Both the position numbers and the translations under genes were made by a program. Below the pieces are notes generated by a model that saw only the letters and a list, made by a program, of their open reading frames with translations, searched no databases and was not told the DNA's origin. 64,000 nucleotides of DNA, from NCBI RefSeq assembly GCF_035594035.1, contig NZ_CP141588.1, positions 1,757,501 through 1,821,500 on the forward strand. Reading direction: 5' to 3'. The stretch comes from Sphingomonas sp. LY54. Its GTDB lineage: Bacteria; Pseudomonadota; Alphaproteobacteria; Sphingomonadales; Sphingomonadaceae. Shown piece after piece: positions 2,759 to 47,078 of this stretch; position 1 is the stretch's first letter, and each line of letters starts with the position of its first letter.

Positions 2759-3720
2759 TTCGGCTCGTAATCCGGAAGTTTCGACCCGCCGATCAGCGCG
2801 CCCGCGCCGCCCTGCTCGACCTTTTCGCTGACCGCGCGCAGCGATTGCGACGTCGCCCTCAAATCCCGCACCAATTGGCCGACCTCGGGCAGAGTCTGCT
2901 TGGAGAAGGCCTGGATGCCCGGGCGCGCGTCGTTGATCGCGGCGTCGAGGTTGCGCATGCTCGTCTCCGCCGCCTGCACCGTCTTGCGAAGGTCGTTGAC
3001 CAACGGCTTGGCGTCGTCGTTGAGCAAGCCGTCCGTGGTTTCGGCGAGGCGGCCGAATTCCTCGGCGGCGTTGCCGGCTTGGCGGATGGCGATGCGGGCG
3101 TCGGCGAGCGTCGCCGCGATCTCGGGGCTGCGCTCGGCGATCGAGCCGCTGATCTTCTCCATATTGTCGAGGATGCCGGCGATCGACGCTTGGTTGCGGT
3201 CGGAGACCAGCTCGGTCAGCCGTTCGGTCAGGGTCGAGACGCGCTCGAGCAATTCGGGCGCGCTGTTGAGCAATTGGCCGAGCGCGCCCGGCTTGGTCGG
3301 GATCACCGGCACGCCATAGGGACACGTGCTCTCGAGATTCTCTTCGGGGCAGGCGAGAGGCGGCGATCCGGCCGGCGCCGGATCGAGCTGGATCTGCGAG
3401 ACGCCGGTGAAGCCGACACCCTGGATCGTGGCGGTCGTGCCCTGCAGGATCGGCGTGTCGTCGCGCGCCGTGATGCGGACGCGGACGAATTCCGGGCTCT
3501 TGGGCTCGAGATTGATCGATTCGATCTGACCGACGGGGACGCCGTTGAAGGTCACCGCCGAGCCTTTGGCGAGCCCGTCGACGGCCTGCTTGAAGAAGAT
3601 GTCATATTCGTTCTTGCTCTCGCCCGACACCTGGCTGAGCCAGATGATGAAGCCGAGCAGGGCGACGACCATGGCGAGCACGACGCCGCCGACGAGGATA
3701 TGGTTGGACCGCGTTTCCAT
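2755..3720 (-). CDS. mlaD: MlaD-type MCE-domain lipid-transport protein
   Basis: Substrate-binding component of a phospholipid ABC transporter, anchored in the inner membrane and facing the periplasm. The protein has 321 residues: one membrane helix at about 8-28, a single MCE domain at about 40-115 (FNGVPVGQIESI is typical), then a long helical tail of about 180 residues. MCE rings shuttle lipids between the membranes. Its start codon overlaps the stop of the ATPase gene by one base (TGATG). The helical tail is longer than in E. coli MlaD and closer to other alphaproteobacterial forms. Confidence 0.9.
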   Translation of the reverse strand: METRSNHILVGGVVLAMVVALLGFIIWLSQVSGESKNEYDIFFKQAVDGLAKGSAVTFNGVPVGQIESINLEPKSPEFVRVRITARDDTPILQGTTATIQGVGFTGVSQIQLDPAPAGSPPLACPEENLESTCPYGVPVIPTKPGALGQLLNSAPELLERVSTLTERLTELVSDRNQASIAGILDNMEKISGSIAERSPEIAATLADARIAIRQAGNAAEEFGRLAETTDGLLNDDAKPLVNDLRKTVQAAETSMRNLDAAINDARPGIQAFSKQTLPEVGQLVRDLRATSQSLRAVSEKVEQGGAGALIGGSKLPDYEPK

Positions 3721-43175: not shown

Positions 43176-44225
43176 ATGGGCCTTCTCGAAGCCAGGAAGC
43201 AGTACAAGCCCTTTGAATACCCCTGGGCGTTCGATTTCTGGAAGCGCCAGCAGCAGCTCCACTGGCTGCCCGAGGAAGTGCCGCTCGGCGAGGATTGCCG
43301 CGACTGGGCGCAGAAGCTGACCGACCACGAGCGCAACCTGCTCACCCAGATCTTCCGCTTCTTCACCCAGGCCGACGTCGAGGTGCAGGACTGCTACCAC
43401 GACAAATATGGCCGGGTGTTCAAGCCGACCGAGATCAAGATGATGCTGACTTCCTTCTCCAACATGGAGACGGTGCACATCGCCGCTTACTCGCACCTGC
43501 TTGACACGATCGGCATGCCCGAGAGCGAATATGGCATGTTCCTTCAGTATAAGGAGATGAAGGACAAGCACGATTATCTCTCGACGTTCGGTGTCGACAC
43601 CGACGAGGACATCGCCCGCACGCTCGCCATGTTCGGCGGCTTCACCGAGGGGCTGCAGCTGTTCGCCAGCTTCGCGATGCTGATGAACTTCCCGCGCTTC
43701 AACAAGATGAAGGGCATGGGCCAGATCGTCTCCTGGTCGGTGCGCGACGAGTCGCTGCACTGCGAGGGCATCACCAAGCTGTTCCACGCCTTCTGCGCCG
43801 AGCGCGACTGTCTGACGGCCGCGGTCAAGCAGGACATTCGCGACGTCTGCCACACCACGGTGGGCCTCGAGGACGCCTTCATCGACCTCGCCTTCGAGCA
43901 GGGCCCGGTGCCCGGCATGACGCCCAAGGAGATCAAGAAGTATATCCGCTACATCGCGGACTGGCGCCTCGGCCAGCTCGGCCTGAAGCCGATGTTCATG
44001 ATCGAAGATCACCCGCTGCCGTGGCTCGCGCCTCTCCTCAACGGCGTCGAGCACGCCAATTTCTTCGAGACCCGCGCCACCGAATATTCGAAGGCCGCGA
44101 CCCGCGGAAACTGGGGCGAAGTCTGGGACAATTTCGACCGCCGCAAGCAGGCCAAGGCCAACGACACGGTCGAGGAAGCCGACGGCGCGGACATGTTCTC
44201 CCAGGCAGGAGTGGCCGCGGAGTAA
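43176..44225 (+). CDS. nrdB: Ribonucleoside-diphosphate reductase, class I beta subunit
   Basis: Holds the di-iron tyrosyl radical used to reduce ribonucleotides. The 349 residues contain the metal-site set D67, E98 and H101 and the radical tyrosine Y105 in METVHIAAY, and the second ligand set in SWSVRDESLHCEG. Length is normal for NrdB. The alpha subunit gene nrdA is not adjacent on either side, so the two are unlinked or at least not in one operon here. A good ribosome site (AACAGGAG) precedes the ATG. Confidence 0.96.
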   Translation: MGLLEARKQYKPFEYPWAFDFWKRQQQLHWLPEEVPLGEDCRDWAQKLTDHERNLLTQIFRFFTQADVEVQDCYHDKYGRVFKPTEIKMMLTSFSNMETVHIAAYSHLLDTIGMPESEYGMFLQYKEMKDKHDYLSTFGVDTDEDIARTLAMFGGFTEGLQLFASFAMLMNFPRFNKMKGMGQIVSWSVRDESLHCEGITKLFHAFCAERDCLTAAVKQDIRDVCHTTVGLEDAFIDLAFEQGPVPGMTPKEIKKYIRYIADWRLGQLGLKPMFMIEDHPLPWLAPLLNGVEHANFFETRATEYSKAATRGNWGEVWDNFDRRKQAKANDTVEEADGADMFSQAGVAAE

Positions 44226-44240
44226 GTCCTGGAGGCGGTC

Positions 44241-44558
44241 ATGGCGGGTCCATCGACACAGGTCGAGATTCGCCAGACCGCCGACTACGACCGTTGGTTC
44301 TCTACCCTGCGCGACATCCGCGCACGCGCCCTGATCGATGCGCGTATCCGCCGCCTCTCGCTAGGCCATGTGGGCGACGCCAAGGCGCTCAGCGGCGGCA
44401 TCAGCGAACTGCGCATCGATTACGGTCCAGGCTACCGCGTCTACTTTGCCCGACGCGGCGAAAGGCTGGTTCTTCTCCTCGCGGGAGGTGACAAATCGCG
44501 CCAATCGGCCGATATTGCACGCGCGCGTGCGCTTGCCGCTGCATGGAAGGCCGATTGA
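44241..44558 (+). CDS. RelE/HigB-like toxin (Gp49-type addiction module)
   Basis: Type II toxin of 105 residues, related to RelE/ParE-fold mRNA interferases of the Gp49/HigB-like group: QTADYDRWFSTLRDIRARALIDARIRRL (given in parts: FSTLRDIRAR, RRLSLGHVGD), then GGISELRIDYGPGYRVYFARRG and LLLAGGDKSRQSADI. These are the usual family blocks and it looks intact. GGAGG lies shortly before the ATG. The antitoxin-like gene starts with a one-base overlap (TGATG), toxin first as in higBA. Confidence 0.87.
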   Translation: MAGPSTQVEIRQTADYDRWFSTLRDIRARALIDARIRRLSLGHVGDAKALSGGISELRIDYGPGYRVYFARRGERLVLLLAGGDKSRQSADIARARALAAAWKAD

Positions 44559-45043
44559 TGGGCACCGAAACCAGCCGGTGGGACGCAGCCGAGCATCTGG
44601 ACAGCCGAGAAGCCGTCTTGGCCTATCTCGAAGCCGCATTCGAAGATGGCGATCCAGAGTTGATCACTGCCGCCTTCGACGATGTGGCTAGGGCAAAAGA
44701 CCTCACGGGCGCTCCGCTGCTTTCATCGACCGAAGTAGGCGAAATGCGCCGAATGCTGGAACAGGTTCAGGATGCCAGCGGCGCAATGTCTGTTTCGGAT
44801 GAAACTTCGTCCGCTGAAGAGACGGTTATCCGCCGCGCCGCGCCGGCCCGCGCAACGCTTCCTCCAGGAAAGAGAAGTGGGTTGGCTTACAGGCGCAGGA
44901 AGGGCGGCGACACCTGGCATTGGTGCCGCAACTGCAGCACTTGGCCCACGCACGCTTACGACGAGCGGCCGACCAAGCCGAGTTCGGGCGACCTCTGCAA
45001 CGAGTGCAGAGCCAAGGACGCCGCCGGCAATTGCGCAAGGTAG
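44558..45043 (+). CDS. Chimeric antitoxin: antidote N-terminus fused to a zinc-ribbon protein
   Basis: A 161-residue ORF. Residues about 1-50 (WDAAEHLDSREAVLAYLEAA; DGDPELITAAFDDVARAKDL) match the start of addiction-module antidote proteins. Their next part, a helix-turn-helix, is missing. Residues about 51-89 are unrecognised and 90-108 come from what was a non-coding leader. Residues 109-161 are a diverged copy of the 52-residue zinc-ribbon protein at 46078 (CRNC and CNEC pairs kept). The former start codon is now TTG at 44882 behind GAAAGAGAAG, so separate translation is also conceivable. Whether it still neutralises the toxin is unknown. Confidence 0.72.
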   Translation: MGTETSRWDAAEHLDSREAVLAYLEAAFEDGDPELITAAFDDVARAKDLTGAPLLSSTEVGEMRRMLEQVQDASGAMSVSDETSSAEETVIRRAAPARATLPPGKRSGLAYRRRKGGDTWHWCRNCSTWPTHAYDERPTKPSSGDLCNECRAKDAAGNCAR

Positions 45044-45137
45044 GCGGCGCTCAATGGAGCGCGGCGACGAACCGCTGATTGTCGGCCATGCCGAGCCGGA
45101 GTGCTCCGGCTTGCGCGGCGTCGCCAAACCGGCGCAT
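44825..45137. repeat. Duplicated block, copy A (zinc-ribbon gene plus exbD tail)
   Basis: About 310 bases aligning with 46021-46340 in the same orientation. Similarity covers the ribosome site, the whole zinc-ribbon gene and, beyond its stop, the 3' end of exbD, where about 50 of 55 bases agree near 45048-45102. The left edge merges into the antitoxin ORF; the right edge stops about 30 bases before the SnoaL-like gene. Confidence 0.8.
45051..45137 (-). pseudogene. Remnant of the exbD 3' end
   Basis: On the minus strand this piece encodes LGMADNQRFVAAL and its stop, matching the last residues of the intact exbD at 46243. About 28 codons are recognisable; upstream the match is lost. The frame stays open across the opposite-strand SnoaL gene but without ExbD similarity. 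A by-product of the duplication. Confidence 0.75.
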
Positions 45138-45167
45138 CTTCCTGCAACAAGACGGGGAGGAACTGCC

Positions 45168-45572
45168 ATGTCGGAAGCCAATGAAACGGTCGTCCGCGCC
45201 ATTTATGCCTGCATGGCGGCGGGGGACGGGCCCGGGTTGATCGCGCGCATGGATCCGGACATCGTCTGGACCGAGGCCGAGAATTTTCCTTATGCCGATC
45301 GCAGTCCCTATCGCGGCCCGGACGCCGTCCTCGCCGGCCTGTTCGCGCGCTTCGGCAGCGAGTGGGACGGCTTCGCGGCGGTGCCGGACGAGTTTCTCGA
45401 CGCCGGCGACACGATCGTCGTTCTCGGCCGTTATCGCGGCACCCACCGCGCGACCGGGCGCGCGCTCGACGCGCAATTCGCCCATGTCTGGACGGTAGAA
45501 GGCGGCCGTGCCGCGGCCTTCCGCCAATATACCGACACGCTCCAGGCGGCTCGGGTCACCGGCACCGACTGA
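45168..45572 (+). CDS. SnoaL-like/NTF2-fold protein
   Basis: A 134-residue protein of the NTF2-like superfamily (nuclear transport factor 2 family, SnoaL-like): ETVVRAIYACMAAGDGPGLI at the start, then DIVWTEAE, YRGPDAVLAGLFARF and FAHVWTVEGGRAAAFRQYTDT. These folds include small isomerases and binding proteins, and no specific reaction can be assigned. GGGGAGGAA precedes the ATG. It lies between the two copies of the duplicated block. Confidence 0.83.
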   Translation: MSEANETVVRAIYACMAAGDGPGLIARMDPDIVWTEAENFPYADRSPYRGPDAVLAGLFARFGSEWDGFAAVPDEFLDAGDTIVVLGRYRGTHRATGRALDAQFAHVWTVEGGRAAAFRQYTDTLQAARVTGTD

Positions 45573-45573
45573 C

Positions 45574-45918
45574 CTAGAATTTCACGCCGACATTGACCAT
45601 CACGCGCTTGCTGATCTCGCCGTTCGGCATGACCACGGAATCGACCGTGACGGTGCCGCGGACGCCATCGCCGAGCGCAATCCCGCTCTCGCGCGGGCCG
45701 CTTTCGTAGATTTTCGCCATGTCCTCGAGCGGATAGTCGCCGCCGGGCGGCGGGCGGCCGCAGACGACGATCTCGTCGGGCGTGGCGCCGGCGCAGGCGC
45801 GGCGCAGCACCGGCTCCGCGGGCTTGGCCCGGGCGAGGTCGAAATCGACCGGCGCGACCGCCCCGCGTCCGGCCGGGTCGGCCGCCGCCTGCAGCGCCAG
45901 CAGCAAAGTCAGGGTCAT
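45574..45918 (-). CDS. Hypothetical secreted protein with DEIVVCGR motif
   Basis: A 114-residue product from ATG 45918, with a short hydrophobic leader (MTLTLLLALQAAADPAG) that may be a signal peptide. The middle contains RRACAGATPDEIVVCGRPPP, a motif seen in many small secreted sphingomonad proteins whose two cysteines may form a disulfide. The C-terminus (ISKRVMVNVGVKF) looks like a beta strand. Function unknown. It converges on the SnoaL gene with one base between stops. Confidence 0.65.
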   Translation of the reverse strand: MTLTLLLALQAAADPAGRGAVAPVDFDLARAKPAEPVLRRACAGATPDEIVVCGRPPPGGDYPLEDMAKIYESGPRESGIALGDGVRGTVTVDSVVMPNGEISKRVMVNVGVKF

Positions 45919-46020
45919 GCCGATCTCCCCCCATTGCCGCACAACGTCCGTCGCCATTGCGGCGGGGATAAGGCGGGCGATCCATCCATTCCGGACCGAT
46001 CTTGCTCCGGAGCGGACCGG

Positions 46021-46340
46021 ATTGTCCGCCTCCCTAAGCCGGCTTGCGCTAGGCTCCGCCCCGGAAGGAGAAGTGGGATGTCCTACAGGCGCAAGAGGGA
46101 CCGGGACACCTGGCATTGGTGCCGCAACTGCAGCAACTGGCCGACGTCCGATTATGTCGAGCAGACGAACAAGCCCTCGGGCGAGCAGTGCAACGAGTGC
46201 AAGGGCAAGGACGCCAACGGCACCTGCACCAGGTGAACGCGCTCAATCGAGCGCGGCGACGAACCTTTGGTTGTCGGCCATGCCGAGCCGGACAATGCCG
46301 GCGCGCTTCACCGCCGCGGCGACCGCGTCGAAGCGGGCAT
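46021..46340. repeat. Duplicated block, copy B (intact source)
   Basis: Counterpart of 44825-45137. It holds the intact zinc-ribbon gene and the 3' end of the full-length exbD, so it is likely the ancestral copy. The two copies are 1.2 kb apart with two unrelated genes between. Confidence 0.8.
46078..46236 (+). CDS. Small zinc-ribbon protein (WHWCRNC family)
   Basis: A 52-residue basic protein with two CxxC pairs: CRNC at 15-18 in DTWHWCRNCSNWPT and CNEC at 38-41, plus a final cysteine at 50. This is a zinc-ribbon pattern with an aromatic WHW lead. AAGGAGAAG seven bases before the ATG is a strong ribosome site. It is free-standing and overlaps nothing. A second copy is fused to an antitoxin at 44558-45043 with about 60 percent identical residues. 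Function unknown; nucleic-acid binding is a guess. Confidence 0.75.
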   Translation: MSYRRKRDRDTWHWCRNCSNWPTSDYVEQTNKPSGEQCNECKGKDANGTCTR

Positions 46341-46677
46341 AAGGCGCCTCGCCGTCGGCCTGGAGCACGAAATCGCTGTCGGGCGCGGCCGCCTGCAGCC
46401 GTGTCAGCCGCGCCTGCAATTCGGCGAGACCGACCGGCGCGCCGTCGAGCCGGACCGTCCCCGCCGCATCGAGCGTGATGCGGTGGATCACCGGCTCCTG
46501 CTGCGCGGCCGGACCATTGGGGAGATCGACCGCGACCTTGTGGCTCGCGATCGGGATCGTGACGATGAACATGATGAGCAGGACGAGCATCACGTCGATC
46601 AGCGGCGTCGTGTTGAGCGTGCCGATCGGCTGCTGCTCGGCAACGGCGTAAGCGGGGAGGGGACGGCGTCTGATCAT
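46243..46677 (-). CDS. ExbD/TolR family biopolymer transport protein
   Basis: Inner-membrane protein of proton-driven TonB or Tol systems. The 144 residues from ATG 46677 (AAGGAG site) have a short cytoplasmic start, one membrane helix (about 22-42) preceded by NTTPLIDVMLVLLIMF with the functional aspartate, and a periplasmic domain. No exbB/tolQ or tonB gene is adjacent, so it is a stand-alone paralog. Its last 25 codons are duplicated at 45051-45137. Confidence 0.88.
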   Translation of the reverse strand: MIRRRPLPAYAVAEQQPIGTLNTTPLIDVMLVLLIMFIVTIPIASHKVAVDLPNGPAAQQEPVIHRITLDAAGTVRLDGAPVGLAELQARLTRLQAAAPDSDFVLQADGEAPYARFDAVAAAVKRAGIVRLGMADNQRFVAALD

Positions 46678-47078
46678 GTCGCGCTCCTTATTGTGATGTG
46701 ACAACATGACATAGCCGGAACGGTTGGGGAAGCCCCTGCCGCGGTACGGCCTCGCCGGTGCCCAGCCTCTCGATCGCCGGGTCGCGCGCGCGGTGGCCCG
46801 CACTCTCCTCCCGCTCGGGCCCTCCGCGCCTCCGCGCGAACCCTTACCCCGCTCGCGGAACAAACAACGAACTTGCCAAATAGGATTTCGTCTGATGGGA
46901 TGAAACCGGCTCGGTTTCCCGCTGCACTAGCGGCAGTCCGGGAGACCTTCGCCACCCGCTCTTTCTCAGCTCGCAACACGTTTTCAGCCCGCCCGGGCGG
47001 ATGGCACGGTCGCCGCCTGAGCAGTCGTCCTGGCGTGACCCAAGTGTGACCTTTCGCGCCATGCGCGCGCTCAGCGCG
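46678..47078. other. 401-base gap without a recognisable gene
   Basis: No ORF with a ribosome site or family match was found on either strand. It contains small inverted repeats (46902-46908 with 46912-46918; CCGCT/AGCGG just after) and two close copies of GTGACC near 47035-47049. No tRNA-like fold was seen. It may hold the exbD promoter and a terminator for the nuclease gene. Confidence 0.4.

Follow-up and report, generated by a model that had tools for sequence, protein, structure and literature searches.

What does an antitoxin gain, if anything, when its reading frame runs on into a copy of a small cysteine-rich protein? This question is raised by a toxin-antitoxin locus of Sphingomonas sp. 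LY54, which lies in a stretch of 64,000 nucleotides analysed here as a whole and called the window. The toxin gene (44241..44558, forward strand) is an intact ORF of 105 aa, as the initial annotation had stated, and it belongs to the RelE/ParE superfamily and to the type upstrm_HI1419 (COG3657). It matched TIGR02683 over the full family length (E 3.2e-36; 123.6 bits, cut-off 62.85), PHROG 3445, named "toxin" (E 2.7e-32), and PF05973 (24.3 bits, cut-off 23.9). The toxin gene stands first and the antitoxin gene second, with stop and start overlapping in TGATG at 44556-44560. Pairs of the HI1419/HI1420 kind (TIGR02683/TIGR02684) are equivalent to COG3657-COG3636, which is listed in the accessible text of Makarova 2009 (PMC2701414). 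The present locus resembles them in the toxin-then-antidote order, gene overlap, toxin family and N-terminal half of the antidote, but differs in the absent HTH middle and in a C-terminal zinc-finger tail. PADLOC gave no match below E 0.03 for the toxin, the fusion or the small protein. Two terminators were predicted where 1.9 were expected, and one promoter where 0.3 were expected; this sole promoter site (44488-44516) is within the toxin gene.

The fusion antitoxin (44558..45043, forward strand) has 161 aa when counted from the ATG overlapping the toxin stop, and would have 166 aa from an alternative ATG at 44543. Residues 1-47 (44558..44698) are the antitoxin core, corresponding to the N-terminal half of PF21716/TIGR02684, and only this half was matched: profile positions 2-47 of 90 for PF21716 (33.1 bits, above the cut-off of 27) and 2-47 of 89 for TIGR02684 (41.8 bits, below the cut-off of 53.7). 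Residues 48-75 (44699..44782) are a shortened HTH region. It was claimed before that the HTH half is lacking; about 15 residues are indeed missing, but the subsequent helix (57-75) is kept, according to the alignment with L005, P0014, P0022, P0024, P0029 and the full-length P0027 and according to the helix in the model. Residues 76-108 (44783..44881) form a linker, and the predicted treble-clef-like zinc finger follows as the tail (44882..45040), so that residues 76-161 are a C-terminal extension on the antitoxin. The AlphaFold2 model of the fusion has helices at 10-13, 17-30, 33-46 and 57-75, disorder at 76-107, where pLDDT is below 50, and a folded tail. Its mean pLDDT was 74.0 and its pTM 0.33, and within the tail the block means of pLDDT were 84-90, falling to 72 at the final residues. 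The input was alignment A7, which has the weakness that some antitoxin C-ends are aligned against the tail; alignments A5 and A8, with misaligned antitoxin N-termini, were excluded from modelling.

The tail is a second copy of the 52-aa protein encoded as a standalone ORF at 46078..46236 (forward strand), a putative zinc finger and paralogue of the tail. The repeat (44826-45100 and 46022-46292) spans the leader, the 52-aa gene and the final codons of an exbD/tolR-like gene (46243..46740, reverse strand; PF02472, E 3.2e-25). The leader of the standalone gene (46022..46077, forward strand), with the ribosome site GGAAGGAG, aligns with 44826-44881, and this old 5' leader is now translated as the final part of the linker. 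The 3' end of exbD was copied along and lies at 45047..45100 on the reverse strand, where its translation reads RLGMADNQRFVAALH and then stop, with 93% identity to 46239-46292; judged by its sequence, this fragment is the mark of how far the duplicated segment reached. A GCGCTC...GAGCGC hairpin is retained at both exbD ends, 45047-45100 and 46239-46292. When the own 3.28 Mb genome was queried with 46000-46300, we obtained the query itself and the fusion copy (E 5.7e-61, 79%), and the next match had E 0.86. The in-frame continuation into a second copy of the small gene, proposed in the initial annotation, is confirmed by this repeat and by the same junction in a relative described below.

The two copies differ more in the coding sequence of the small gene (74% identity at 44793-44979 and 79% at 44984-45041) than in the 54-nt exbD end (93%), and the window's two copies are separated in the trees. 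A recent duplication between neighbours as the whole story was rejected on these two points. The differing codons of the fragment, read in the exbD frame, are three synonymous and one nonsynonymous; this pattern probably means that the copies diverged when the fragment still served as exbD, or else that the fragment was constrained as RNA. Between the two small-gene copies dN/dS was 0.53, a sign of mild constraint only.

Also as first described, the old start of the small gene is still visible within the fusion ORF, as a TTG at 44882 preceded by GGAAAGAGAAGTGGG, while the start at 46078 is preceded by GGAAGGAGAAGTGGGATG. The locus might accordingly make two products, the fusion and a free zinc-finger protein from the internal start. 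The retained leader and start position, with Met at this place in the relative P0001, would fit such an arrangement, but the start of the window is now TTG, its ribosome site is AAAGAG against AAGGAG of the standalone gene, and an intact standalone copy exists 1.2 kb away. We give hardly any credit to a second product.

An open junction by itself is weak evidence of a real gene fusion, since 28% of first-order Markov simulations also kept 58 codons open. The metagenome protein P0001, 161 residues long, shares the fusion from end to end with 88% identity; because it shares the junction over 161 aa, the fusion is more than chance. The differences between P0001 and the window are distributed as 0/47 in the core, 5/28 in residues 48-75, 4/32 in the linker and 10/54 in the tail. 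A search for the same junction succeeded in a metagenome and failed within the genus, where the other 25 genomes searched (26 with its own, which alone has the fusion) did not contain it. Some match at E <=0.01, several of them weak, was found in 17 of 60 genomes including its own, and none of these 60 besides its own had the fusion without stops.

A dead antitoxin beside a tolerated or inactive toxin had been offered as one of two outcomes. This would agree with the antidote profile being matched over half of its length only. The identical core of P0001 makes it less likely, the toxin gives a full-length family match, and an unfused locus, L005, also combines an antitoxin lacking the HTH middle with an intact toxin ORF; decay of the antitoxin is therefore very improbable.

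The relatives without tail also bear on the age of the HTH gap. L005 has, behind its toxin ORF, an antitoxin of 81 residues with the same gap and no tail. In the alignment the same stretch is missing from the unfused P0014, P0022, P0024 and P0029, and L116 lacks it by eye; the full HTH is kept in P0027 and in loci L117-L119. Because six unfused relatives have the same missing middle, the simplest view is that it was lost before the fusion arose, and by this sequence comparison the loss probably predates the tail. A removal of the HTH by the fusion event is therefore not supported. The start of P0024 resembles, by eye, the end of such a toxin. The six antitoxins with the gap (L005, L116, P0014, P0022, P0024 and P0029) are a natural set in which to study autoregulation in the absence of that helix.

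It could still be supposed that the zinc finger took over DNA binding from the lost HTH and restored autoregulation of the operon. The HTH middle is absent from the fusion, the start of the tail is basic and Arg-rich, and a zinc-finger-like fold is predicted, all of which would suit a DNA binder. Nevertheless, unfused relatives with the same gap persist without any tail, and proteins joining DUF433 to the tail retain DUF433, which binds DNA in a member studied in the accessible text of PMC3834315. The initial annotation had seen replacement of DNA binding as a possible job for the fused domain; as its general job this is not supported, since DUF433, HicB-like and Phd-like partners retain their N-terminal antitoxin domain. 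Because the tail is also on antitoxins with an N-terminal domain of their own, HTH substitution is not the general reason for it, and we consider it a doubtful explanation at this locus.

The earlier suggestion of a new antitoxin architecture is supported, and the tail was also found outside the window. The main protein search, whose query profile contained five DUF433 proteins, was evaluated for the best 120 of 1334 matches, so the counts of tail carriers are those of a sample. The matches listed comprised 127 proteins, 121 with the tail domain and six HI1420 antitoxins without it. Among these 121 tail carriers, 109 had the DUF433 label, three had DUF4926 and one was HI1420. Single proteins among the matches listed carried the tail on DUF2442 (E 1.9e-22), on HicB_lk (E 7.6e-9) and on a Phd/YefM-like domain (E 3.8e-4, below the Pfam cut-off), and on the unrelated antitoxins the tail is C-terminal. 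An earlier search, with a query containing no DUF433, had already returned DUF433 fusions as 17 of its 30 matches, and a protein search with the region only gave three candidates. DUF4926 was not counted as an antitoxin, because a literature search gave no support for this role. P0002, P0011, P0012 and P0031 have the tail and no family above the cut-off, and resemble, by eye, membrane or coiled proteins; these four carriers without an antitoxin domain mean that the tail is not antitoxin-specific. In P0127 (74 aa) the domain is essentially standalone.

The complete set of putative Cys/His ligands was present in 120 of the 121 tail carriers among the matches listed, the exception being a shortened sequence, and an alignment of 97 DUF433 fusions had at least 90% conservation at each of the six positions. 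The conservation of cysteines claimed for the tail of the window is borne out, with its His and five Cys retained.

The DUF433 fusions were further compared with their tail-less relatives. In the one such locus with readable surroundings, L073, the gene for DUF433 with tail overlaps and is followed by a DUF5615/Mut7-C gene, so that a toxin gene is retained there. A homologue of this neighbour lies on the same strand near 23 of 29 tail-less DUF433 relatives, and also in L125, which is the same place as L073. None of the 29 DUF433 relatives examined had a tail. In the class used for DUF433 comparison, 51 of 162 genomes had a match, and only G626 was matched through the tail without stops.

In the first tree, which left out five loci (L025, L064 and L083-L085), 27 fused rows need six changes. 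For the second tree 17 divergent standalone rows and five DUF433 rows were dropped and seven P rows added, and there the HI1420 fusion pair grouped with 11 standalone proteins (95/88). These two results disfavour a single origin of all fusions, although one clade of all fusions was not rejected (p-AU 0.299). On the sequence evidence we favour the reading that the tail was captured in independent events.

Scanning the contigs of 84,980 species, within the limits of the search pattern, gave 82 confirmed loci of the small gene, of which 80 were kept. Almost every one of them is a separate gene with a start of its own that codes for about 50 residues; L073 is a clear fusion and L050 a possible one. 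They are distributed patchily over many bacterial phyla and archaea, with three on plasmid records (two Thermus plasmids and one Halosolutus plasmid), and in the class of the window 2 of 289 genomes, its own included, have the gene (E 1e-6). Viral contigs contributed 31 loci, roughly one third of which are distant, and a search of 50,697 phage records found none (E 0.01), so the small gene was not accepted as a phage gene. The scans made with the small protein gave no Pfam or NCBIfam match, and it and L049 had no PHROG match below E 0.065.

The standalone protein was modelled with pLDDT 91.7, and together with the tail values in the fusion model this agrees with the initial expectation that the fused domain may fold. 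The order of elements is strand 3-6, strand 11-13, a knuckle with C15 and C18, strand 26-29, and a helix 39-47 with C38 and C41 at its start. The fold predicted by the model is treble-clef-like instead of the plain zinc ribbon first named. Searching PDB by sequence returned only short repeats of a yeast alpha-factor chain, and a fold search with the small protein and the fusion gave nothing usable and no PDB fold match. The protein is likely zinc-binding; the model itself is metal-free, and zinc was assigned because of the cysteines, which follow the pattern H.C..C...C..C...C of putative metal ligands. In a table of 221 rows, from which 8 of the 121 tail-bearing P rows are absent, the third Cys is Asp in 10 standalone rows (the possible fusion L050 among them) and in one viral row, and in 0 of 115 fused-labelled rows, which include P0127.

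The standalone family offers some further observations. At L007:1546-1713 (genus relative G014) the first knuckle Cys is Tyr, and this copy is probably decaying. The viral-contig relatives L179-L181, L183 and L185, near 3001-3140, have the form YHW...C...CxxC, in which the first and last Cys are both missing and His is kept; this joint loss is suggestive of different sets of ligands at a single metal site. Among 76 loci examined, 8-9 have another small Cys-rich protein (QTCKxCGRxDKFDF...VVCLxCFD) encoded next to the standalone gene in the opposite orientation: L027:4162-4407, L058:4153-4512, L076:4168-4380, L081:2008-2253, L083:4284-4688, L089:4137-4427, L036:3773-4039 and L043:3615-3893, all on the reverse strand, and likely also L051:4153-4347. 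Its L081 copy, the one tested, had no Pfam match. Peptidase_M78 (ImmA/IrrE-like) is immediately upstream of the standalone gene at L033:3153-3929 (above the Pfam cut-off) and L041:3141-3854 (below it).

The small gene could be a sporadic mobile gene that simply landed behind the antitoxin and was tolerated there, without a role for the pair. Its patchy occurrence, plasmid records and viral contigs are consistent with this. Between P0001 and the window the rate of change in the tail is no lower than in the linker, so constraint on the tail is not evident in this lineage. The site itself, window 44223-45600 at the 3' side of nrdB, is an apparent variable slot in the genus: toxin and fusion genes were absent 3' of 25 nrdB loci in 23 other genomes of the genus, 23 of these loci having 596-1973 bases downstream, and in six relatives with ORFs listed downstream of nrdB (loci among L187-L211) each was unlike the others and unlike the window. 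On the other hand, the nearly invariant Cys/His set in the tail carriers listed, its positional conservation in the aligned DUF433 fusions and the presence of the tail on several unrelated antitoxin families speak against a tolerated passenger. We therefore hold a passenger origin without function to be possible, though on the unlikely side.

The closest principle known is that of TAC systems, chaperone addiction, where the unrelated antitoxins HigA, HicB and MqsA bear a C-terminal extension that adds a further control and can be grafted between antitoxins; these ChAD extensions have no significant mutual similarity and depend on a SecB-like chaperone, according to the accessible text of PMC5105189. 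The likeness is in principle only, a C-terminal extension controlling unrelated antitoxins; the tail described here is one homologous, predicted folded domain, unlike the dissimilar ChADs in that text, and scanning seven proteins from this part of the window against family profiles named no SecB. DUF433 is the antitoxin of the PIN-COG2442 pair VapBC10, and the accessible text on it mentions no tail (PMC3834315). That pair has other toxin and antitoxin families than the window; the likeness lies in the 109 DUF433 proteins with tail among the matches listed, with L073 as one beside a nuclease-like protein. The pair dhiTA is listed as DUF4160/DUF2442 in the accessible part of PMC8198452.

MqsA has a zinc-binding N-terminal domain and a C-terminal HTH. 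Placed beside it from general knowledge, the fusion is likewise a putative zinc-binding antitoxin, with the domain order reversed. Our literature search, with subscription journals mostly outside its scope, found no paper on such an antitoxin tail.

Taken together, we consider with a probability of about one half that the locus is a working type II toxin-antitoxin pair, in which the N-terminal part neutralizes the toxin and the flexibly tethered zinc finger is an added control or docking domain. The pair would be of the HI1419/HI1420 (COG3657-COG3636) kind, with an antitoxin from a subfamily already without the HTH middle. The leader, coding region and downstream exbD end of the small gene would have been copied into the 3' end of the antitoxin gene to give a single ORF. 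The N-terminal helices (about 1-75) would neutralize the toxin, and a flexible linker of roughly 32 residues would tether a zinc finger that folds on its own. The finger may be a docking or stability switch, which might bind a partner in the cell or a nucleic acid, or might unfold upon metal loss or oxidation and so free the toxin. We assign it this added role because the tail recurs on unrelated antitoxins that retain their own N-terminal domains.

Counted against this main reading are the change of the tail between P0001 and the window, the dN/dS of 0.53, the absence of the fusion from the other 25 genomes searched in the genus, the carriers without an antitoxin domain and the lack of a solved relative.

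A wider reading is that the tail is a transferable control domain, a single homologous zinc finger which, attached C-terminally to unrelated antitoxins (HI1420, DUF433, DUF2442, HicB-like and perhaps Phd-like), puts them under one shared cue. This is a tentative reading that we rate as rather unlikely, and candidates for the cue would be the metal or redox state, an adaptor of a protease, or some partner that the standalone protein binds as well.

How antitoxins sense stress and release toxins is a long-disputed question. One predicted folded domain on several unrelated antitoxins is a handle on it that is directly testable by grafting or removal. The locus also points to a family of small proteins in bacteria, archaea, plasmids and viral contigs for which the present scans gave neither a Pfam nor an NCBIfam match. 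That one tail occurs on antitoxins of several unrelated families hints at a shared control over them.
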